IMG/VR virus record: IMGVR_UViG_3300032288_005651
Coordinates: 1-20,792 of that record
From: a virus
Strand: one strand, 5' to 3'
Length of the DNA stretch: 20,792 nt
This document shows positions 1-20,792 of this stretch, piece by piece; the stretch's first letter is position 1, and each line of letters starts with the position of its first letter. The position numbers and the translations under genes were made by a program. Under the pieces are notes generated by a model that searched no databases, had not been told where the DNA came from, and was given only the letters and a program-made list of their open reading frames with translations.

Positions 1-155
1 CCGTCTGTACCTGATGTACCACTAGAACCTGAACTACCATCCGTACCACTTGTACCAGAACTTCCTGATGAACCATCTGTTCCGCTTGTTCCTGAAGAAC
101 CAGAGCTTCCGTCTGTACCTGAAGAACCACTAGTACCTGAAGAACCAGAACTTCC
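1..155 (-). repeat. 36-bp-period collagen-like coding repeat
   Basis: The repeat encodes Gly-X-Y triplets with a 12-residue period (DGSSGSSGTSGT). At least three full units are visible, and the array continues beyond the left edge. The protein units are identical, but their codons differ widely, including AGY versus TCN codons for serine, so the DNA repeat is much more degenerate than the protein repeat. Confidence 0.85.
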
Positions 156-1034
156 AAATGTACCTCCCGTAACAACTACTGTTAAATTTCCACCACCATT
201 ATCAATTACACTCGCACCTGAAAAAGTTATCCCTGTTACGTTGGTAACAGTTACTCCTGATGTTGCATCATAAACAGTTAATGGACTTCCTCCACCTCCT
301 GTATTAAATCCTGTTACATCAAATGAACTTCCGTCACTATTATTTAATGTTAAAGTCCCTGTACCACTATTATATGTTCCACCTGTAACTGTTCCTGTAA
401 ATCCAGTAATTGTTACAGTACCTCCTGTACTATTATATAAATCTAATGAAGTTGTTGCGGAATAATACGTTCCTCCTGTAATTTGAACATCCGAGCCGTA
501 AAATATTCTCCATCTTGCATCTTCATGTGAAACAACATCAATACCTTCAATTGTAGATGCAGTCCACGCATTAACAAATGCTTGTCCCGCTGCAGAACGA
601 TTGTTAACTACAGTTTGATATTCCGTTTGAGTAATACCTGAATTACCTGTAAGACCCGATAAATTATCCCATAATTGTTGATAATTTGAAATTGTGTATT
701 GGTATACTGTATCAGTTTCTTGAACATGGACTTGCATACCTAGTCTTCTTCTACCTGAAGATATATTATCAGAATTAAGTGTTACAAAGTCAGAAGAAAA
801 AACACTACCAGTACCTTTTGTAAAGTTAATTGGTATTGTATTGGCTGATAACTGAATCTGCGATGGGTAAGTAGCCGCTGTTAGAGTTAATCTAAGGTCA
901 CTAATATTCCACACCTCCATGTAACCACCGACATTAAGAACGGAAAATCCTATCCCTTGGACAAGATTTCTAGTTACCGATTCTGGTCCTGATAGTTGAG
1001 CTGCTGATATGGGATTTTTATATGGGGTTGCCAT
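1..1034 (-). CDS. Collagen-like Gly-X-Y phage fibre/adhesin protein (3' end outside window)
   Basis: I read this frame directly from the ATG at 1032-1034. It is open to the left edge, giving at least 344 residues with no stop. Residues 1 to about 290 look like a beta-rich, Gly/Thr/Asn/Ser-rich structural region with many VTITGFTG-type strands. From about residue 294 to the edge every third residue is Gly, in a 12-residue unit of the form GTD-GSS-GSS-GTS. This is a collagen-like Gly-X-Y pattern without proline, and such stretches commonly form extended trimeric shafts in phage fibres. There is no signal peptide, and the gene follows other virion genes with a 23-nt gap, so a tail or capsid fibre is the best inference. 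The N-terminal region was not recognised, so the exact particle location is unknown. Receptor-binding or tip sequence would lie further left, outside the window. Confidence 0.8.
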   Translation of the reverse strand, partial: MATPYKNPISAAQLSGPESVTRNLVQGIGFSVLNVGGYMEVWNISDLRLTLTAATYPSQIQLSANTIPINFTKGTGSVFSSDFVTLNSDNISSGRRRLGMQVHVQETDTVYQYTISNYQQLWDNLSGLTGNSGITQTEYQTVVNNRSAAGQAFVNAWTASTIEGIDVVSHEDARWRIFYGSDVQITGGTYYSATTSLDLYNSTGGTVTITGFTGTVTGGTYNSGTGTLTLNNSDGSSFDVTGFNTGGGGSPLTVYDATSGVTVTNVTGITFSGASVIDNGGGNLTVVVTGGTFGSSGSSGTSGSSGTDGSSGSSGTSGTDGSSGSSGTSGTDGSSGSSGTSGTD

Positions 1035-1057: not shown

Positions 1058-2134
1058 TTATGTTTTAGTATCACCTTTAAAGTAAATAGATTGAGTTAAT
1101 GGTACACTATTTGGTTGTTGCATTTGTGAATACATCCACAACACCCTATATGTTCCGTCAGGTATTGGTCCTCCTGATAGCGTAACTGATGTTCCAGCAA
1201 GTACTGAGTCAGGTATACCATCATTTATAATACTTGTAGAACAAGCAGAACCTAATCCAAGGTCAAGTGTCATATTATTCATAGTTCCACCAACACCGGC
1301 AAGTGGTATCCAAACTGTATACCAATAGTAAACTGACGGGTTAACTTGGGATGTTGTTACTTGTATTGTTCCGAAAGTGTATTGGTTTTGAGAACATCCA
1401 AATCCATCAACGCCAGAACCAGATGATTGTCTGATAGGACTTTTTAGTGATATTACAGGTGTTATAAAGTTTCCACTACTTCCAGTCCATCCACTGTATT
1501 TTGCATAATAATTCATGTTTGCATTGTAGTTAGACGTAGATGGAACACCCGTGTTTCCAAAACCATACCAATCAGCACCAATGTCATACATATATTGACC
1601 CAAATCATTTTGAGATGTACTATCAAGTGGTTCAGGGAATAGATAAGCAAAGAAACTATTACCACTTGGTGTTGGTGTTTGCGTCATTGTTGGAGTATTT
1701 GTTGGTGTTTCTGTGGCAGTTTGTGTTGGAGTAAGAGTATTTGTTGGTGTTTGTGTAGGTGTTTGGTTGGTTGGCGTTTGTGTTGGCGTTTCAGTATTAG
1801 TTGGCGTTTGTGTTGGTGTTTCAGTATTTGTTTGTGTAGGTGTTGGAGTGTTAGCAGATGGTGTAACTGTAGGTGTTATAGTTGGTGTTGGAGTTGGAGT
1901 TGGTGAGCACTCGAATGTTACAACAACACCTGCAATCATCTGAGTTCTTGTTACCGCAGAATAATATGGTGTAGAACCTGTTGAATCTATATACACATTA
2001 AATGGACCTACCGCATTAGAATTTGGTGTCAATCTAACAACATAAGAAGTACAACCTGTTACGGTAACTTGTTGTTCTATTTCTGTATTACATCCAGGTG
2101 TTGTGTTTACTACGATTATACTATATAAAGACAT
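1058..2134 (-). CDS. Phage structural protein with Thr/Pro-rich linker
   Basis: This 358-residue protein starts at the ATG at 2132-2134. Residues 1-76 form a small beta-rich domain with three cysteines before the linker (C15, C28, C76). Residues about 78-157 are a low-complexity linker made almost only of Thr, Pro, Gln, Asn and Glu ([13 protein letters not shown] type). Residues about 158-358 are an aromatic- and Gly-rich globular domain. Two domains joined by a stiff, extended Thr/Pro linker suggest a fibre or decoration protein that holds a binding domain away from the particle. It has no signal peptide or membrane segment. It lies between two small paralogues and a collagen-like protein in the fibre end of the cluster, with an 85-nt upstream gap that holds a promoter-like element. 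Neither globular domain was recognised; the function is inferred from architecture and neighbours. Confidence 0.8.
1664..1903 (-). repeat. Thr/Pro linker coding repeats, including a near-perfect 30-bp tandem pair
   Basis: This low-complexity DNA encodes the Thr/Pro linker. Within it, 1771-1800 and 1801-1830 are adjacent 30-bp copies differing at two positions. They encode the same ten-residue unit ([10 protein letters not shown] type). Shorter, less regular copies flank them. Such arrays can change length by slippage. Confidence 0.85.
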
Positions 2135-2520: not shown

Positions 2521-2790
2521 TTATATCTCTGTTATTACTATTTCATAAATACAATAAATGCAGTCAAGTATTTTAAATATTTCACATCCATTGTTGTCAG
2601 TTAGTATTAACATTACTTCATCAGCACCTTCGAACAAGGCAGGTATTGTTGTATTAAATGTGGCTGTAGGTGGCACGGGACCAGGATTTATTGTCCCTAT
2701 CGAAACTTTATTATTAGCATTTGTGTCAGCAATAGAAACATTTATTGGGTAAGACGCATTAGAAATATTTACAATTCTAACTTGTTTCAT
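2521..2790 (-). CDS. Small beta-rich phage protein, copy B of a tandem paralogous pair
   Basis: I chose the ATG at 2788-2790, giving 89 residues that begin MKQVRIVNI. A GTG nine bases upstream would add only three residues. The ATG forms an ATGA overlap with the stop of the SprB-repeat gene, the usual arrangement for coupled translation, and it aligns with the start of paralogue A. Blocks shared with A include QVRI.NI, NNK, VPPT, N.TIP, CEI and KILDC. By eye about half of the roughly 80 alignable residues are identical. No known family was recognised. A small structural or decoration role is inferred from the neighbours only. Confidence 0.75.
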   Translation of the reverse strand: MKQVRIVNISNASYPINVSIADTNANNKVSIGTINPGPVPPTATFNTTIPALFEGADEVMLILTDNNGCEIFKILDCIYCIYEIVITEI

Positions 2791-4931
2791 TTTAAACACA
2801 TTATATCATAAACAATCAACAACTCTATTTTTATTTCTTGACCATTCAAAGAATTATTATTCTTATCTGTTTCAATAGTTATTTGATTGTTTAGTTGATT
2901 TATTGTAACACCTCCAACACCTGGTATACTTAATAATAAACTTTTTACCGTATTGTAATATAAGTTATCTGAAGGTGCGTTATTTAAACTTGTTGATGTA
3001 TAGAAAAGATTACTTGTTGTATACCCCGCAGGAGAAACAGAAACTTTAGCAGTAAAGGTCGCACTAACCAAATCACAACTTGTATTATCTGAAGTTAAGT
3101 CAGCAAACCCTTCATTCATCATTTGTAACAAACCATACTTTACTGGTGATTGAATCAAAAATGTATCAGCTCCCATAACATATGTTTCATATGCCGCGTA
3201 GTTTGTATTACAAGTGATTGTTGTTGTTCTTTTTTGTGTACATCCAGAAGCATCTATAATCGTTAAACTATAAGTTCCCGCAGTTAATCCTGCAACTTGA
3301 ATTTGTTGTGGGTTTCCGCTAACATTATCAGACCATTGAAATGTAAATGGTGGTACTCCGCTAGATATAAAGGCAGTTAAAACTCCATTACTTCCACTAC
3401 CACAAGAAGTACTATATAAAGAATAATTTAAATTTTCACTTGACGGAATAAAAACATTTTGAGTTTTTACACATCCGTCGGCATCGGTAACTGTAACAAC
3501 ATGTGAACCTGAAGTTAAGTTATTAATTGTTACTGAACTGAATGTTGAATCAATAATGTTATATAGACCATCAACAGAATAATCTATTGGCTTTGTTGCC
3601 CCTGTTGTGGTGGTAATTTTAATCTGACCATTATTTTGACCACAAGTTGTAGATGTTGCCTCTGTTGTAATTGTGTATTTATTTTCCGTAATTAAATAAA
3701 CTTCTCTTAAATAAGAACATCCCGAATTATCTTCTACAACTACGGTATAGGTCCCAGCATTTAAGTTAGAATATAATTGACTTGTTTGTGAATTGGTAAC
3801 ATCTAATTGTGTTGCATCAGGAAATATTAAAGTATATGTATACGGTGTTACTCCCCCAACCACACTTATCAATATCGAACCATTATTACTTGAACATGTT
3901 GAATTTTGTGCCGTAACTGTAACTGAAGCCATTCCTAATGGCGATTGTATTGTTGTTCCAGCATTAAAACTACACAATCCCGCATCTGTAACTAAAAATC
4001 CATAATTACCTGATGATAAACCTGTTAAGGTATACGTTCTTGAATATGAAATAAGAACATCACCTGTTGATGCAGAATAATAAAAAGGAGCCGTTCCTCC
4101 TGTAATTGTCATACTAATTACACCGTCACTAGAAAAACAGTTTGGTTGTGTTGCCGTAAACACACCTAACCCAATTGGTGGTACTTTTTCAACTGTTGTT
4201 GATTTTGAAGTAACACACCCATATGAGTCAGTAACCTGTACTGAATAACTACCTTCTGTTAATCCTGTTATGGACTGAGTTGTCGCCCCATTACTCCATA
4301 GATAAGTGAAAGGTGGTGTTCCTGTTTGACCTGTAACAAATATTTTACCGTTAGGTAAATTGGCACATGTTGAATTGGGAACTGTGTATAACCCAAAATC
4401 TAATGGTGAAGAATCTTCAACAATAAAAGTTTGACTTCTTCCTGAGCAACCACCCAAATCTAAAGCAACCAAATAATAAGTTCCCGCAGTTAGATTAGTG
4501 AATACCGCTGTGGCTAAGTTTGTTGTTGCAGAACTAACAAACGTATCATCTTCTTTATATATTGAAAATTTTGTACTTGAATATAGTGATGTTGACGTTC
4601 CTGTAACCGAACCATTATTTAATCCACATGTTGTTCCTTGTACGGATACAATACTACAACAAACACCGCTAGATACGGGTATGTTTACATAAAACTGATT
4701 ATTGGTTGGTAGGGTACTATCATTTAATCTAACAGAATAAGTTCCGTATGCTAAATTAGTTCTATTTGAATTTCCTGTTGTAACTTCAACTGGAGGTAAT
4801 GATGGGTCATACCATTCTACTGTATATGGAGGGGTTCCTCCCGACACATAAATGTTAATCGCACCAGCACTTGTATGTGAACAATCACCTGTTACAGATA
4901 CTAAATAATTAAATGGTCCATAACTCTGCAT
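2787..4931 (-). CDS. SprB-repeat phage tail fibre/adhesin-like protein
   Basis: This is a 714-residue protein. Residues about 10-573 contain seven SprB-type repeats (roughly 10-85, 93-172, 182-249, 258-328, 337-414, 420-495 and 502-573). Each has the pattern C..(N/S)G.I.V...GG.PPYT..W followed by GL..G.Y.V.V.D..GC. Repeat 3 is closest to the family consensus, with GTPPFTYLWSNG and TDSYGC. SprB repeats are known from the flavobacterial gliding adhesin SprB and other Bacteroidota surface proteins. Residues about 574-714 form a different C-terminal domain that I do not recognise, a candidate tip or attachment domain. There is no signal peptide and no type IX secretion tail, and the gene lies 9 nt after the gpI-like gene. 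It is therefore best read as a tail fibre or appendage protein, not a bacterial adhesin. Its receptor target is unknown. Confidence 0.85.
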   Translation of the reverse strand: MQSYGPFNYLVSVTGDCSHTSAGAINIYVSGGTPPYTVEWYDPSLPPVEVTTGNSNRTNLAYGTYSVRLNDSTLPTNNQFYVNIPVSSGVCCSIVSVQGTTCGLNNGSVTGTSTSLYSSTKFSIYKEDDTFVSSATTNLATAVFTNLTAGTYYLVALDLGGCSGRSQTFIVEDSSPLDFGLYTVPNSTCANLPNGKIFVTGQTGTPPFTYLWSNGATTQSITGLTEGSYSVQVTDSYGCVTSKSTTVEKVPPIGLGVFTATQPNCFSSDGVISMTITGGTAPFYYSASTGDVLISYSRTYTLTGLSSGNYGFLVTDAGLCSFNAGTTIQSPLGMASVTVTAQNSTCSSNNGSILISVVGGVTPYTYTLIFPDATQLDVTNSQTSQLYSNLNAGTYTVVVEDNSGCSYLREVYLITENKYTITTEATSTTCGQNNGQIKITTTTGATKPIDYSVDGLYNIIDSTFSSVTINNLTSGSHVVTVTDADGCVKTQNVFIPSSENLNYSLYSTSCGSGSNGVLTAFISSGVPPFTFQWSDNVSGNPQQIQVAGLTAGTYSLTIIDASGCTQKRTTTITCNTNYAAYETYVMGADTFLIQSPVKYGLLQMMNEGFADLTSDNTSCDLVSATFTAKVSVSPAGYTTSNLFYTSTSLNNAPSDNLYYNTVKSLLLSIPGVGGVTINQLNNQITIETDKNNNSLNGQEIKIELLIVYDIMCLK
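3213..4904 (-). repeat. Seven SprB-like protein repeats
   Basis: Seven units of about 70-80 codons each are recognised by an N-terminal Cys, a GG-x-PPY-type turn, a G-x-Y strand and a D-x-x-GC end. The units are diverged at DNA level; repeats 2 and 4 lack a clean PPYT motif. Boundaries are approximate. Confidence 0.8.
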
Positions 4932-4940
4932 TAGTTTCTG

Positions 4941-7922
4941 TTATTTACAATTTATACTAAGATTTATCCCAACATTCAAAGAAACTAAATCCTTTAAATT
5001 TCTTGGTTCACAAGTCAAACTTGTTATTGTTAACAAATTCCCATTTAAGAAATATGTATACCCATAATCATAAAGATTTGGCAGATATTGTATTAGAGCG
5101 TTTCTCCACATTGTATTTGTAGGCGCATCTGTGTACCCATATCCACTATAAAACATTTCTTTTATAATAATATCCCCACCTATTTTTAAATCAATAAACC
5201 ATTGTGTCTGTGTTGAATTTTGAACACAATCGTTAAGTGTAAGATTTTGAGTTGCCAAATAAGAACTAACCCTATTAGCCAAGATTCCTTGGAAATTGCT
5301 CACGTTCACATCACCATTAAGCCATGGTAAGATATAGAAATCAACATATTCAGACGCACAAGTGAAATCAAAAATGTTTGAAATTATATAACAAGGTTCA
5401 GCAGGTACTGGTACAAACTGACAACCCCTTTGTCTTCTATAAACAAACTTCTGTCTTTGGAAAATTGAATTTTCTAGTTTTGTTCCTGTATTCCAAATTG
5501 TTGTTGCGGGAATCATTTGTTCCACAAGTTTCATCCAATTTGGATTTATACCATTAACATAATCAATAAGTTTTTGGTATGTGTATTTGTTATTTGGTAA
5601 ACCAACGGTTTGTTCTGACTCGATGTATTTCCACCAAATAGATTGGAGTGTTGGATATCCTCCTGTCTTACCATCGGTAATAAATTGTCTGTTTCTTGTA
5701 TTAATCATATTCTGCCAAAAAGTTTGGTAGAATTCAAAGAATGTTTTTTTCTTTGGTTCAGGATTAACATAAGTCCAATCAACCCCTCCTGGTACAGGAT
5801 AACCTACAGTTAAACCTGATTCAGGTATTGGGTAATCATATCTAACTGATTGTACCCACACATCGTAAGCCATTCCCTGTGAAGGGTTTAAGAAAAGGTC
5901 AATGTTCTTGACATTTAATACCAATTTTTCATTGTCCGTAAAATAATATGCATTGTAATTGGCATCGTTAGAAACTCTAATCTTATCATCATTTTCCAAC
6001 CAAGATTTATTATTATCAACAATTTTTCTTAGTTTGAAACCTTCGTTCATATATGGGAACTGTCTGAATCTATCAAGATAAAGTTGTCCGTATGTGAATG
6101 GCTGTAGTTGTGTTTGAATATCGTAGTTCTGTCCAGTATATACGTCACCCGTAATTACCACTTGGTCAGGACTTCTATGTGATGGGGTTACTTGATACCA
6201 TCCTGCACCTAATTGGAAGAAGTAAGATTCAGTATTAACAGGTGCCTTTGGAAATCCTTCTCTATCCATTGGGTAATCATCCAATGTAACGGATACGTCT
6301 TCGTAGTTTTGTGTAGATGTAAATGCTGTAAATGTACGACCTTTGATTTTATAAGTTTGTCCCGCCAAATATCCAGGTTGATTTTGTACGTATGTACCTC
6401 CCGATATCTGAGCCCATTGATAATCAAATTGGTCCAAATTAATTTTTTGGTCAGCCAAATAAATGTGCTCATTATATTCAATCAATGATTCGGGAGCTCC
6501 TATCATTCTTAATAAAAATTCAATAGACCTTCTTGTACCTTTAGATTTAAAAAGATATGCCGAATTTAAAATCAAGTTTCTATAAAACTGATAATTTAAT
6601 TCAGTTGGCGTCAGGGCTCTTGCATAACCAGGATACGTTGGTGTTGAAGTATTACCAAACACCGAACTTAAAAAATCTTCATTTGTTATTGGCGAAAAGT
6701 TTGACGACCATCCCAACGTTTGTGATAAGTTCACAAGCAATTGTGATGGGATATCATTTTCAGGGTTGTAGTTTACCGAATTCATATATGCCAAAGCATC
6801 AATGAATTGTTTTATCTGGTCAAAACTTCTTCCATAGATTTGAAATACCTTTTCAACCTTTTGACCTAAAGTATCAAACTCTTTTAAAGATGCGGTAATC
6901 AAAAATCTTGATATTAGATTTGTTTTGAATGAATCAAGATTTTCCGCAACACCTTCAAGTTGTGTTAAATAATCATCAAACAAGAAAGACCTAATATCCA
7001 AATTCCATGGACCATCTTTCGGCCAAGTAACATTTTGGTAATTAGTATAATATTGCCCATCGTCATTTTGTTGTGGGACTTGAAAGGCGGCAGTATATTC
7101 AGGTCTAACTAATCTATTTAATAAAAACTTTTCTACTTCATTAAAATCTTCAGCAAATACTTTATCACAGATATAGTCATTTGGTCTAATCTGAAAATTA
7201 TCATAAATTGTTGTTGCGCTTGTTCCAAATGGAGCACCTGAAACATAAAACGCAATTGAACCCGAACTAAGTGTTGGTGATGGACTAAATGATGTTATTT
7301 CGTAGTTGTTATCATTTATTGCAAGTGCATAATCTAAATAAGTGTTATATAGATTTCTATATTTTGAAACTGTAATTTCCCTTAGATTTAGATTTGTTGT
7401 CGCACTTAATGAATAATCTATATCAAACGGATTATTAATTCTACTAACAGGGACTTCAAAATATGTTTCATCCAAAACCGAATCATAACTTACATTAACC
7501 GCAGTCGCACCTGTAACATATTCTAAATTTGAAAACAACACATCAAGTGATGCAGGAAAATAATTAATAATGTTGGTAACAGAAACCTGAAACCTTTTCG
7601 CCAAAGACCCATACATTGAAAAGTTAAGGACCTGTGATACATCATAGTTTGGATAAACTCTAAATTGTGTTGCAAGTATGGTTCTACTTTCGGCAAGGTC
7701 TTCGATATCCAAATCATCCAAACTGATTGGTTCTGAAAACGCACCTACGTTAAATTTTCTATTAACCTTTTCGACAACAGAAGTTGTAAAATCAAAGTTA
7801 CCTTGCGTAAGACCCCCACCTTCAACAGTTTGTAAACCTACAATGTTATCTGAGAAGGTATTGGCTCCACTACCAGGCCTCGGTGGATAAAAATATTTTG
7901 TTGTCTTTATTGTAGTTGCCAT
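4941..7922 (-). CDS. Baseplate/tail protein with P2 gpI-like motif (gp7-like wedge candidate)
   Basis: This is a 993-residue protein; its ATG overlaps the stop of the previous gene as TAATG. Residues about 352-405 and 440-477 form a helical block that ends in FKSKGTRRSIEFLLRMIGAP (458-477). This resembles the K.KGT(...)hhh signature of the P2 gpI tail-protein family, which in simple contractile baseplates is related to part of T4 gp7. The preceding LLVNLSQTLGW (395-405) fits the same family's conserved 'LPWLAWALGW' area. The rest is beta-rich, aromatic-rich and long compared with gpI (under 200 residues), so it would be a greatly enlarged homologue. It sits just upstream of the fibre genes, as I precedes H in P2. 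A baseplate-to-fibre connector is inferred. Similarity outside the motif was not recognised. Confidence 0.65.
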   Translation of the reverse strand: MATTIKTTKYFYPPRPGSGANTFSDNIVGLQTVEGGGLTQGNFDFTTSVVEKVNRKFNVGAFSEPISLDDLDIEDLAESRTILATQFRVYPNYDVSQVLNFSMYGSLAKRFQVSVTNIINYFPASLDVLFSNLEYVTGATAVNVSYDSVLDETYFEVPVSRINNPFDIDYSLSATTNLNLREITVSKYRNLYNTYLDYALAINDNNYEITSFSPSPTLSSGSIAFYVSGAPFGTSATTIYDNFQIRPNDYICDKVFAEDFNEVEKFLLNRLVRPEYTAAFQVPQQNDDGQYYTNYQNVTWPKDGPWNLDIRSFLFDDYLTQLEGVAENLDSFKTNLISRFLITASLKEFDTLGQKVEKVFQIYGRSFDQIKQFIDALAYMNSVNYNPENDIPSQLLVNLSQTLGWSSNFSPITNEDFLSSVFGNTSTPTYPGYARALTPTELNYQFYRNLILNSAYLFKSKGTRRSIEFLLRMIGAPESLIEYNEHIYLADQKINLDQFDYQWAQISGGTYVQNQPGYLAGQTYKIKGRTFTAFTSTQNYEDVSVTLDDYPMDREGFPKAPVNTESYFFQLGAGWYQVTPSHRSPDQVVITGDVYTGQNYDIQTQLQPFTYGQLYLDRFRQFPYMNEGFKLRKIVDNNKSWLENDDKIRVSNDANYNAYYFTDNEKLVLNVKNIDLFLNPSQGMAYDVWVQSVRYDYPIPESGLTVGYPVPGGVDWTYVNPEPKKKTFFEFYQTFWQNMINTRNRQFITDGKTGGYPTLQSIWWKYIESEQTVGLPNNKYTYQKLIDYVNGINPNWMKLVEQMIPATTIWNTGTKLENSIFQRQKFVYRRQRGCQFVPVPAEPCYIISNIFDFTCASEYVDFYILPWLNGDVNVSNFQGILANRVSSYLATQNLTLNDCVQNSTQTQWFIDLKIGGDIIIKEMFYSGYGYTDAPTNTMWRNALIQYLPNLYDYGYTYFLNGNLLTITSLTCEPRNLKDLVSLNVGINLSINCK

Positions 7923-17267: not shown

Positions 17268-19106
17268 TTACGAGAATGTTACAGATTGGAAATTTTTAAC
17301 AGATACCCTGATATCTTTGTTTGGATATCTAACCTGATAAACCTGTGATGGTTGTGCAAATATTGTATCATCAATTGGACCAATTTCTCTCGTTTCAGGA
17401 TTTGAATATTCCATTGATGTTTCTGCCGAAGAGTATTGACCACCAACATTATTATAAATTGTAAGTCCTGCAACAGTAAGAACACCATTCTGATTTTGTA
17501 TGATGCTTCTTATCTCTGATAAATAAACATTTTGACCTAACTGTCTTGTCTGTGGGTTGAAATAAGTCGATATCTTATCCACAACATCAGCAATGATTTG
17601 TCCTGAGTTTTGTGCAGAATCTAAAACGATTGAAATATCCACACTTAAATCAATAACTTCAGCAGTTAAGATTGATATGTAATCATTCATCATTCTATAA
17701 TTAGAAAGATAGTTTGCAACATTTTGCTTCAGTGTATTAGAAACAATACTTGTTAACTTACCTGAAGTATCATATGATAATAATTGAATTAAAATCTTGT
17801 TATTATTTTCAGTAATAGAAACTTTTGCAGGTGCTCCATATTCTGATGGCATGTTTCTTATGATTGATTCATAATCCTGAACTGTGACCGCTCTTTTCTG
17901 TGCAGCAAAATTAAATGAAACATAGTTTCTTATTTCTTCTAATGAAGGAACCCCCGCACCACCAACTGCTGCAGTAACGTTATTACATCTTAGAGAGTTA
18001 ACAACAGATGAGTTGGTTAACTCTGAAGGTCCATTAACAAAAAATGAAACAGTTCCAATTTGATTAATCACGTTTGTTCCCAAATTGGTTGACAATCCTC
18101 CACCGATTCTATACTGAATAAATAATGTGGAGTTGGGTGTCAATGCAGAACCTAAAGAAAAGTTATTACTATATCTTTGTAAATCTAATGTTGCACCTAC
18201 AGTTGTGAATTGGTCCAAAGCGTCTTGTGCCGTATTTGTACCTCCACCAAAAGTCATTTTTTTAAATCCTTCAGGTGTAAATTCAGTTATAAATCTATTT
18301 TGTGTTTGAATGTATTTTCCAACTTTAAGACCTGGTTGGTCCGATACTTTTGTTGGGTCTTCAACCCAAACTCTGTCTTCAGCCAAAGCATCGACTTCAT
18401 ACCATCTATTAGATACACCTAAAAACTCTGCAGCTGTTGGTATGTTTGTATACTCTGTTCCACTTTTCAATAAAACACTTGTAATACCTAAAACATTTTT
18501 TTCAGGTAAAAATAATTCAAAGAAAGGTCTAACATCATTTGGTGTAATAACTCTTTTGAAAACTTTAGTTATACCATTAACAACAAGTTCTCTTTTTGTT
18601 ATTGTATAATTAATTAAAACATTATTGGCATTAAAGTTTGGTATTTTTAATCTATTAGGAAATCCTTGGGAATTGTATGGAGACGCAAAATCAACATCAT
18701 AAATATTTTCAAATACTATTCCAGCACCTGTTACTTGTGAACCTCTTGTTAAAACACCCAAATATCTTTCATCTTCTTTATCACCAAAAGCAGGAACTGT
18801 AATAGAAAAATCAACCAAAGCAACTGATGGTCTTTGACCTGGAAGCTTTAGTCCGTATGTTCTTGCAATGTTATATATTGACGATTTTTGTTGTGCATAT
18901 TGTAAAACAGTTTCCTGAATACTTCTATCAATATGATAATGTAAGTTATCTGCAACCGCGGCATTCAAATCCAAGAATACCGAAAAAACTGAAGCATCAT
19001 TAAAATCTTGAATAAGTTCTGGATAATAAGTTCTTACATAGTTTAATAACTCTGTTCTTATTCCCTGATAATCTCTGGTTGTATATGATATTTTACGATT
19101 GGCCAT
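17268..19106 (-). CDS. Baseplate wedge protein, T4 gp6 / P2 gpJ-like
   Basis: This is a 612-residue protein (T4 gp6 is about 660). The N-terminus (residues 7-80: SYTTRDYQGIRTELLNYV, YPELIQDFND, DNLHYHID and a following Q.A...S...A...G pattern) is typical of gp6/baseplate-J proteins, which form the ring of wedge dimers around the tail tube. Later marks of the family are QYRIGGG (331-337) and QKRAVTVQDYESII (403-416), matching the 'a.. RAVT..DY..l' segment. The C-terminal ~150 residues, with IVLDS..N..QII.DV and a LG..VYLSEI..II helix, fit the family end. The gene lies 5 nt after the gp25-like gene, as J follows W in P2. It is a confident structural assignment. Confidence 0.92.
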   Translation of the reverse strand: MANRKISYTTRDYQGIRTELLNYVRTYYPELIQDFNDASVFSVFLDLNAAVADNLHYHIDRSIQETVLQYAQQKSSIYNIARTYGLKLPGQRPSVALVDFSITVPAFGDKEDERYLGVLTRGSQVTGAGIVFENIYDVDFASPYNSQGFPNRLKIPNFNANNVLINYTITKRELVVNGITKVFKRVITPNDVRPFFELFLPEKNVLGITSVLLKSGTEYTNIPTAAEFLGVSNRWYEVDALAEDRVWVEDPTKVSDQPGLKVGKYIQTQNRFITEFTPEGFKKMTFGGGTNTAQDALDQFTTVGATLDLQRYSNNFSLGSALTPNSTLFIQYRIGGGLSTNLGTNVINQIGTVSFFVNGPSELTNSSVVNSLRCNNVTAAVGGAGVPSLEEIRNYVSFNFAAQKRAVTVQDYESIIRNMPSEYGAPAKVSITENNNKILIQLLSYDTSGKLTSIVSNTLKQNVANYLSNYRMMNDYISILTAEVIDLSVDISIVLDSAQNSGQIIADVVDKISTYFNPQTRQLGQNVYLSEIRSIIQNQNGVLTVAGLTIYNNVGGQYSSAETSMEYSNPETREIGPIDDTIFAQPSQVYQVRYPNKDIRVSVKNFQSVTFS

Positions 19107-19111
19107 CTATG

Positions 19112-19582
19112 TTAAATATTAATAATAACAAAATCACTTTGGGCAAAAGTGTTTTTATTATTTGAATAATCTATTTTTATTTTTGCAGTATATTCTGCGG
19201 TTCCTTTTCCTGGAAATCTGTAGATTGAAATGTTTGATGGTCCAGCAATATTTGTTTGTGTTCCCGCATTTACTTCTTCCATCGGGTCTAAAGGTTCTAT
19301 TGTTATATTATTTAATAGTAGATTTGGCATATACTTTTGAACCGAATCTCTAATATCTGATTCTATTGCGTCAAAAGTCAATCCATCAAATGGTTCAAAA
19401 ATATATTCATATAATCTTGTACCAAAATCTGGTAAAAAATATCTAGAACCTTTTCTCGTTAGTAAAAGATGTATTAAGTCAGCCTTAATTTCTTGGGATT
19501 CAAATTCAGTTAATTCTAAATAATCACCTCGTCTTGAATCCCTAAAAGGAAAATTTATACCATATGTAGTTCCATCTGCCAT
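19112..19582 (-). CDS. Baseplate wedge protein, T4 gp25 / P2 gpW-like
   Basis: I chose the ATG at 19580-19582, giving 156 residues that begin MADGTTYG. A longer frame to 19684 would add 34 basic residues overlapping the neighbouring gene and is not supported by the family. Residues 36-63 (LIHLLLTRKGSRYFLPDFGT then RLYEYIFEP) are the gp25/W/TssE signature, with the conserved R-x-G...R...P-x-FG and lfeP elements. gp25 binds gp6 and starts sheath polymerisation. The family's C-terminal EPR-type motif is expected near residues 85-87, but here reads Met-Pro-Asn. An insertion of about 30 residues (98-127) precedes the last strands. The adjacent gp6-like gene supports the call. Confidence 0.9.
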   Translation of the reverse strand: MADGTTYGINFPFRDSRRGDYLELTEFESQEIKADLIHLLLTRKGSRYFLPDFGTRLYEYIFEPFDGLTFDAIESDIRDSVQKYMPNLLLNNITIEPLDPMEEVNAGTQTNIAGPSNISIYRFPGKGTAEYTAKIKIDYSNNKNTFAQSDFVIINI

Positions 19583-19602
19583 ATGAAATAAATATACTTT
19601 GT

Positions 19603-19797
19603 TTATTTTTTTATTGTAGTGTTTCCTTTTTGACCCTTTGGTTCGAATGGACAATGACGACACCCATTTATCGAACCGCAACAATACCCTCGACTTAAAT
19701 GATATTCTTCAGTGAATACAACTCTACTATTTTCAATGTAATAATCAGAAGGGAGAATCGTTTTTTGATTCTCCCTTTCTTTTTGAATATTTTCCAT
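19603..19797 (-). CDS. DUF5522-like small Cys/His protein
   Basis: This is a 64-residue protein starting at the ATG at 19795-19797. It ends with YIENSRVVFTEEYHLSRGYC, then C-G-S..GCRHCPFEP. That is the signature of the DUF5522 family: a Tyr-rich start, VFT..YHL.RG, two adjacent Cys, then GC.HCP. These are short proteins of unknown function, widespread in Bacteroidota. The two CC residues (39-40), C46, H48 and C49 could bind a metal; this is inference. It sits between the reductase and the baseplate genes, 3 nt from the reductase stop, so it is probably co-transcribed with it. It has a 2-residue insertion (SI) in the CCG..GC turn relative to the usual CCGxGC. It is likely host-derived. Confidence 0.8.
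   Translation of the reverse strand: MENIQKERENQKTILPSDYYIENSRVVFTEEYHLSRGYCCGSINGCRHCPFEPKGQKGNTTIKK
19749..19777. terminator. Perfect 11-bp hairpin inside the DUF5522-like gene (+ strand terminator-like)
   Basis: AAGGGAGAATC (19749-19759) pairs exactly with GATTCTCCCTT (19767-19777) around a 7-nt loop. On the plus strand it is followed by a T-rich run (TTTCTTTTT), as in an intrinsic terminator. On the minus strand, where all genes lie, no T-run follows. It begins 20 nt after the first base of the minus-strand start codon, so it may instead act on mRNA folding. Its role is uncertain. Confidence 0.5.
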
Positions 19798-19800
19798 ATC

Positions 19801-20792
19801 TTAAACTAAAACACAAGCTCCACCAGCACAAGCCAATTCACCACTTAAATCAGTATCATCGTCCATTTCAATGATTTCAGACAAATCAACATCGTGTAAT
19901 GTCTTCATAAGCTCTTCATACTTTTCTTTAGTACAATCTTCAAAAGGAGCTTGGATATAAGTTCCTCCGTCATATGGAAGAACTGACAGACCGTTGTAAG
20001 CGTCTTTGTTTTCCCACATCCACTCACCAACTGCTGGCCATTCGTGTTCACGAATAGATATTGTTGCAGATACGTTATGTGCGTTTGAACCACTTCTGTG
20101 TCCAGGTTTAATCCATTCTTGTTGAACTTTTTTAACCCTCTCCAACAATTGGATTGGTGATTCATTTCTTAGGATTGACCCTTCGGGTGCTTTTTGTGGA
20201 ATACCAATAACCGCAGTATCATGTGGTCTAAAGTATTCATCTTCAACCAATTCAGGATGGTTTACCGCTAAGTGTGAATAAATTGCTTCATTCTTACCAA
20301 CTCTCACTCTTCTAATATAGTAGTCGTTGTGCCAAGCGTGGATACCTGAAGATGTACCTAAAGTTAATGATGTTGTTCCTGCAGGTTTAACTGTAGTTGT
20401 TCTTGCCGCTGGATTAATTCCCAATAACTCAGCAACTCTTTTATTTTCTTCTTTAACAACCTTTGCCGCTGATTTCATATTCAAACCAAGAACCGCACCT
20501 GAACCAATGCCTGTCATTGAAATTCCAATCAAAGCATCCTTTTCTGTTGTTCTTTGCCAAATAGGTCTCAAGTAGTGGAAGTTAGTGTATCCCGCTTGAA
20601 GTGTTCCGATAAACGATGCAGCCTTAACCCTATCTTCATAATCTTCTTGTGATACTACGTTTGAAACGTTTACCTCTGTTAGATTACAGAATTGGAATGG
20701 TCTAAGAGCAATTTCACAACAAGGATTAGTTCCCCAATCTTTATCATTACTCAAATAGATTCCAGGTTCTCCTGCTCCACTTGCTTCAATTC
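19801..20792 (-). CDS. nrdJ: Class II (B12-dependent) ribonucleoside-triphosphate reductase, C-terminal part
   Basis: The frame is open to the right edge, so the 5' end is missing; about 330 residues remain. A TTG at 20752-20754 is internal, since upstream codons read GEPGIYLSNDKDWGTNP, a family sequence. NPCCEIALRPFQFCNL (20680-20727 region) holds the active-site radical Cys, the Glu two residues later, and the second reductant Cys eleven residues on, as in the Lactobacillus leichmannii enzyme (C408, E410, C419). KPAGTTSL and YYIRRVRV match the class II core. The C-terminus CAGGAC has the redox Cys pair spaced by five (C731/C736 in that enzyme). It converts NTPs to dNTPs using adenosylcobalamin, feeding phage replication. 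It lies next to baseplate genes at the edge of the metabolic module. Confidence 0.9.
   Translation of the reverse strand, partial: IEASGAGEPGIYLSNDKDWGTNPCCEIALRPFQFCNLTEVNVSNVVSQEDYEDRVKAASFIGTLQAGYTNFHYLRPIWQRTTEKDALIGISMTGIGSGAVLGLNMKSAAKVVKEENKRVAELLGINPAARTTTVKPAGTTSLTLGTSSGIHAWHNDYYIRRVRVGKNEAIYSHLAVNHPELVEDEYFRPHDTAVIGIPQKAPEGSILRNESPIQLLERVKKVQQEWIKPGHRSGSNAHNVSATISIREHEWPAVGEWMWENKDAYNGLSVLPYDGGTYIQAPFEDCTKEKYEELMKTLHDVDLSEIIEMDDDTDLSGELACAGGACVLV

Follow-up and report, generated by a model that had tools for sequence, protein, structure and literature searches.

Why does a phage keep, among its baseplate genes, an array of domains of the kind found in Bacteroidota adhesins, and is the protein that carries them the part that touches the host? 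The window, i.e., the whole 20,792-nt stretch of DNA that was analysed (IMG/VR virus fragment IMGVR_UViG_3300032288_005651, positions 1-20,792), has its genes on the minus strand, that of the 714-aa SprB-repeat protein included, in the order ribonucleotide reductase, gp25-type wedge, baseplate J-like protein, proteins of 1571, 562, 274, 363 and 302 aa, p993 and the SprB protein, after which come two small proteins, a Pro/Thr-stalk protein and a collagen-like protein (Table 1). Because the gp25- and J-type genes are recognised by family matches, we regard the region as the baseplate cluster of a contractile tail. The SprB gene begins 10 bases past the upstream p993 gene and overlaps the gene that follows. 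A sequence-only reading of the locus had described its product as probably a fibre with a borrowed host adhesion fold, encoded directly after a gpI-like baseplate gene, and its C-terminal domain as the best candidate for a tip.

Table 1. Features of the baseplate region, in window coordinates.
Feature	Positions	Strand	Remarks
Baseplate J-like (gp6-type) and gp25-type wedge genes	17268..19684	(-)	Family matches
p993, conserved baseplate-block protein (993 aa)	4941..7922	(-)	Directly upstream of SprB gene
p993 C-terminal domain, about residues 870-993	4944..5315	(-)	Probably related to residues 575-714 of the SprB protein; invariant Cys899, Cys992
SprB-repeat protein, 714 aa	2787..4931	(-)	Final gene of the vertically inherited baseplate block; ATG start
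SprB-type unit 1, residues 7-92	4656..4913	(-)	Least conserved part
SprB-type unit 2, residues 93-176	4404..4655	(-)	Diverged; not detected by Pfam SprB
SprB-type unit 3, residues 177-252	4176..4403	(-)	Top Pfam SprB match
SprB-type unit 4, residues 253-333	3933..4175	(-)	Pfam and segment profile
SprB-type unit 5, residues 334-416	3684..3932	(-)	Pfam and segment profile
SprB-type unit 6, residues 417-499	3435..3683	(-)	Pfam and segment profile
SprB-type unit 7, residues 500-574	3210..3434	(-)	Pfam and segment profile
C-terminal alpha/beta domain, residues 575-714	2787..3209	(-)	Phage-only in the searches made; invariant Cys619, Cys712
Two small proteins, 92 and 99 aa	2220..2799	(-)	48% identical; head of decoupled module
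Pro/Thr-stalk protein	1058..2134	(-)	Likely an exchangeable fibre, with variable stalk and end domain behind an N-terminal anchor
Collagen-like protein	3..1034	(-)	Cut by window end; likely fibre

The HMM search that the sequence-only reading had proposed places the protein firmly in the SprB repeat family (PF13573): Pfam-A matches it over six stretches with E=2e-30 and 104.5 bits, against a curated cut-off of 28 bits. Searching the whole record with PF13573 gave six places, three of which singly exceed 28 bits, and the same search found no match in any of 14 control genomes. Seven segment profiles, cut at the unit limits of Table 1, each recover the positions of the other six units in register, including unit 2, which Pfam misses, although a few of these cross-matches are short and near or below zero bits, mostly those to unit 2 and those between units 1 and 2. 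As the segment profiles locate one another's places, we count seven units, the number that had been read from the sequence. The AlphaFold2 model (46 sequences, mean pLDDT 83) shows successive beta-sandwiches followed by a separate C-terminal alpha/beta domain. All units carry two conserved cysteines about 50-74 residues apart (window 3210-4913), which might form disulphides; disulphides are unusual in a phage part assembled inside the cytoplasm. Sequence searches of the PDB returned weak matches only, e.g., the T5-type decoration protein 5lxk at E=0.05.

The relatives of these repeats lie in Bacteroidota. A GTDB scan with the family alignment yielded 64 bacterial loci, all but one titled Bacteroidota or members thereof, and most of the alignments were confined to the repeats, ending at or before residue 598, with a few extending to 630-662. 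Of 198 Bacteroidota genomes, 50 contain SprB; none of the 14 controls does. Over the repeat region the phage protein is ~25-32% identical to proteins of Rufibacter, Flavobacterium, Robiginitalea and others, with which it shares the family match, its own units having conserved cysteines. It differs from these adhesins in always having seven units, whereas dozens are present in single bacterial genomes, and in having a C-terminal domain of its own, not found in the bacteria searched. As units 3-6 match bacterial repeats better than they match one another (there being far more bacterial repeats to choose from), the array appears akin to Bacteroidota adhesin repeats rather than being a recent expansion within the phage. 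The exception in the GTDB scan (L166), a MAG titled Sphingomonadales whose SprB protein is ~4200 aa long, is probably misbinned.

Unlike most of the bacterial proteins, the phage protein shows no export signals. By a simple hydrophobicity rule, a signal-like N-terminus was present in 48 of the 54 bacterial SprB proteins with a complete start and in none of 70 family members (the window protein and 69 relatives). Type IX sorting domains occur in the two bacterial SprB proteins that were checked, and the Pfam search of the window protein gave neither CHU_C nor Por_Secre_tail above cut-off. The lack of a secretion signal noted previously was thus confirmed, and we rejected a secreted host-type protein. 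That the homologues might mainly be secreted host proteins, which would have spoken against the proposed fibre, is true of the repeats by themselves; the whole architecture was found only in phages.

The start codons of this lineage also point to Bacteroidota. Shine-Dalgarno motifs precede 3.7% of them versus 3.3% in shuffled sequence, a pattern shared with the Bacteroidota loci (4.8% versus 4.0%) and with a Flavobacterium phage, which likewise lacks them, whereas Microcystis phage Mel-JY01 reaches 28.6% versus 11.6%. Bacteroidetes are naturally without Shine-Dalgarno motifs (PMC6847099). As the signal is missing, a Bacteroidota host is likely for this phage lineage, judging from a feature that fits Bacteroidota in general and from close relatives all of which are metagenome contigs. 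The ribonucleotide reductase fragment (window 19801-20790) is 68% identical to the ribonucleotide reductase of Mel-JY01 and 62-63% identical to Oceanospirillum and Vibrio phage genes that bear the annotation 'recombinase'; with its nearest relatives in phages of Microcystis and of Oceanospirillum/Vibrio, it proved uninformative as a host marker.

To judge what the protein does we turned to its natural variation. IMG/VR holds at least 467 p993 relatives, and the clade examined comprises those in which p993 is ~76% identical or more, on contigs of up to 326 kb; redundancy was reduced, though it is still present in some counts. In all 99 loci that continue for at least 2,250 bases past p993, the next gene encodes the repeats and the C-terminal domain. 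The lengths of 94 of 100 complete SprB proteins fall between 709 and 715 aa, and among 81 distinct C-terminal sequences the domain is preceded by 570-587 residues wherever the 5' side is complete, so that the number of units is constant, with neither gain nor loss. The fixed place within a cluster of gp25- and J-type genes, following p993 each time, is that expected of a baseplate or tail structural protein, and with such constancy the SprB protein resembles a permanent component more than a variable tip that selects the host. The adjacency that had been described therefore stood in every locus, and the gpI-like label did not: 25 members of the p993 family gave no Pfam family above cut-off, p993 had no PHROG match and its structure model is poor.

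Co-inheritance was evaluated by setting the pairwise distances of each protein against the p993 distances from the same contigs, a measure that leaves room for local exchange inside a protein. The distances of the SprB protein closely track those of p993 (r=0.92; 0.92 for the repeats and 0.84 for the C-terminal domain), as do those of the 562-aa (0.93), 363-aa (0.90), 302-aa (0.84) and 274-aa (0.83) proteins of the baseplate block, the 1571-aa protein being lower at 0.65. At the very next gene the correlation drops, to 0.36 for the small protein, 0.42 and 0.28 for the N-terminal part and the end domain of the Pro/Thr-stalk protein and 0.32 for the collagen-like protein. The border between the vertically inherited baseplate genes and the exchanged genes is therefore located directly after the SprB gene, where an exchangeable host-range module would begin. 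Conservation along the SprB protein is fairly even: it is lowest where unit 1 begins, and the C-terminal domain lies a little above average. A receptor-binding tip is expected to show variability and exchange of its distal domain, whereas here that domain is conserved and co-inherited, and the variability of host-range type appears, from these comparisons of sequence, to sit in the genes downstream. The two small proteins at the head of the downstream module seem to be a tandem duplication in the window and in one relative (L001); other relatives have a single longer copy.

The C-terminal domain, proposed previously as the tip, is modelled by AlphaFold2 as a helix, a hairpin, a helix and strands, behind a linker of low confidence (residues 575-597). 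Residues 574-714 had been called unrecognised, and they indeed match no family in Pfam or PHROG. A profile of the domain found nothing in 395 Bacteroidota genomes or in the 64 bacterial SprB loci, and recovered the domain in 4 of 4 related phage records that served as positive control. A few relatives continue past it with a Pro/Thr-rich linker, some of them with differing end domains in addition, over 31 to at least 376 residues. Such fusions mark the end of the domain as a site at which tips can attach, and because these relatives append linkers and end domains after it, the SprB protein would be an anchor or platform and not itself the tip. The fused Pro/Thr linkers were seen in L133, L144, L043, L046, L037, L047, L054 and L140, several with different end domains, and, inspected visually, those of L133 (same contig as L043) and L144 resemble YVTN-type beta-propellers, for which Pfam gave no match.

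When the window proteins were compared by profile, the C-terminal domain paired best with the end of p993, at a score of 23.3, compared to 13.7 +/- 3.0 for column-shuffled decoys, of which 2 of 150 reach that score. Only the C-terminal parts taken alone gave a signal (E=0.005 in one comparison, hhalign probability 7%), whereas comparison of the full-length profiles gave none; the SprB protein and the small downstream proteins compare at E=0.003 and probability 11%. The predicted order is the same in both C-terminal regions (a helix, two long strands, a second helix and further strands), the C-terminal end being the only usable part of a p993 model whose overall quality is poor (pLDDT 36); a fold search with p993 returned nothing and a sequence search against solved structures found no match to it. 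The invariant cysteines are 93 residues apart in both proteins, and the offset of 280 between the two pairs equals the offset of the profile alignment, outside which the cysteines lay. We conclude that the two regions are probably of common origin, on sequence evidence that is marginal. A domain that varies no more than the rest of its protein, is inherited with p993 and probably related to its end, turned up in none of the bacteria searched and carries, in a few relatives, linkers and varied end domains does not behave as a tip. What stands of the fibre proposed earlier is a protein of the tail/baseplate region made of a Bacteroidota-adhesin-type domain.

Based on these data we consider it probable, with some reserve, that the SprB protein is an obligate structural part of fixed length at the outer edge of the baseplate, beyond which adhesive and exchangeable parts are attached. 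The phages would be large and contractile-tailed and would probably infect Bacteroidota. The seven Ig-like SprB-type domains may serve as an elongated spacer or strut, and the C-terminal alpha/beta domain, probably related to p993, as a docking or oligomerisation platform; the downstream Pro/Thr-stalk and collagen-like proteins, mounted beyond it, would choose the host, and in some relatives the end domains fused to the protein's own C-terminus may take over the exchangeable adhesive role. We infer the presence of the protein in the virion, its position and orientation at the baseplate edge and its contacts with p993 and the fibres, its location being deduced from gene order. A more specific version, which we put forward only tentatively, is that an adhesin domain was turned into an invariant baseplate strut when seven units were joined to a second copy of the p993 C-terminal domain, which now acts as a platform for fibres or tips.

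A repeat array with a terminal domain is the usual make-up of a fibre, SprB-type domains are typical of adhesins and fibre-like genes come next in order, all of which would suit a receptor-binding fibre with an SprB stalk and a C-terminal tip that binds the host directly. A receptor-binding protein that happens never to be exchanged would also be co-inherited, and this counts against our preferred explanation. Still, we find such a fibre unlikely, as its length and unit number are fixed, its supposed tip is not variable and is passed on together with the baseplate block, further end domains follow that tip in a few relatives and p993 probably has a similar end. Somewhat less probable still is that the repeats form a non-specific adhesion layer like Hoc or the BACON/Ig arrays, binding polysaccharides weakly and lengthening contact while specificity resides elsewhere. 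The Ig-like fold, the PHROG matches of the protein to Hoc-like decoration proteins (2e-8) and to a tail protein, and the likeness of units 3-6 to bacterial adhesin repeats are in line with it; however, weak adhesion needs no strictly constant number of units, and we know of no binding residues in SprB units. Such a layer is compatible with a fixed baseplate part and does not exclude it.

The remaining alternatives start from the host. That the repeats mimic or grip host gliding adhesins and so attach the phage to a moving surface seems very improbable, since to our knowledge no SprB-SprB interaction has been described, our results do not support gliding hosts and an arms race would hardly have left the phage units so conserved. 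The idea draws on the presence of SprB-type units in both phage and host and on the gliding machinery having been proposed as a phage receptor in Flavobacterium (PMC7345892). We give almost no credence to display or secretion of the protein by the infected cell, outside the virion, in the manner of host SprB proteins: a 642-kb uncultured phage does encode an SprB protein in which a signal-like N-terminus is combined with a type IX sorting domain, but in the present family none of the 70 members is signal-like, no sorting domain exceeds the cut-off and the gene keeps its fixed place inside the baseplate cluster.

Ig-like arrays are common in phage tails and their role is mostly guessed. Here, natural variation draws a sharp line between two adjacent genes, with the fixed part on one side and the exchanged part on the other, which opens the role of a borrowed adhesin-type domain to testing; the determinants of host range in this widespread uncultured lineage should be looked for in the genes after the SprB protein and not in its C-terminal domain.

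SprB repeats in phage proteins are already present in databases and are not new there, and the literature that we searched held no description of them. A0A6J5LD72, named 'SprB repeat' and from an uncultured Caudovirales phage, is the best viral structure match and likewise has 714 aa, aligning over the full length at 34% identity; it is more distant and known by its database name only. The nearest described case is that of the crAss-like phages, in which tandem BACON repeats of tail-associated proteins arose by duplication or transfer of single domains (PMC6949934). Both are Bacteroidota-type surface domains arranged in tandem in a phage tail-associated protein, yet the domain families differ and here the number of units is unchanged among the 81 distinct sequences. 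With the Ig-like domains of Hoc-type and T5-type (5lxk) proteins the units share the beta-sandwich and the PHROG matches, whereas the SprB gene lies at the baseplate and not among head genes, and its product combines seven units with a C-terminal alpha/beta domain.

The best matches among solved structures are to fragments of GhpA (9flp, 9fly, 9flw; 17% identity, Foldseek E down to 6e-20), the grappling hook protein of the Bacteroidota member Aureispira; they are chains of like beta-sandwiches. GhpA differs in being a giant bacterial surface protein, and the whole-chain TM-scores are ~0.15-0.2, as expected for flexible chains, so that the match is one of domains and not of the whole chain. Immutovirus and Mel-JY01 have the gp25 and J genes in common with the window (J ~27%) and no SprB protein at the corresponding place, indicating that the protein is specific to this lineage and not a universal baseplate part.

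Some phage records show further features. In L002 an extra gene of 226 aa with a zinc-finger-like cysteine pattern, possibly a homing endonuclease, is inserted at 3388-4068 in the otherwise constant cluster. LR756502.1, the 642-kb uncultured phage referred to above, encodes a protein of 1670 aa (L020:18927-23939) that lies in no tail cluster and combines numerous SprB repeats with a signal-like N-terminus, a CHU_C type IX sorting domain and a PKD domain; here a phage genome holds an entire secreted adhesin of host type. In two relatives of 317 and 321 kb, SprB-like units occur together with Pro/Thr linkers in a second large protein (L294:8510-11464 and L295:7339-10188), which adjoins another fibre-like gene away from the baseplate cluster.
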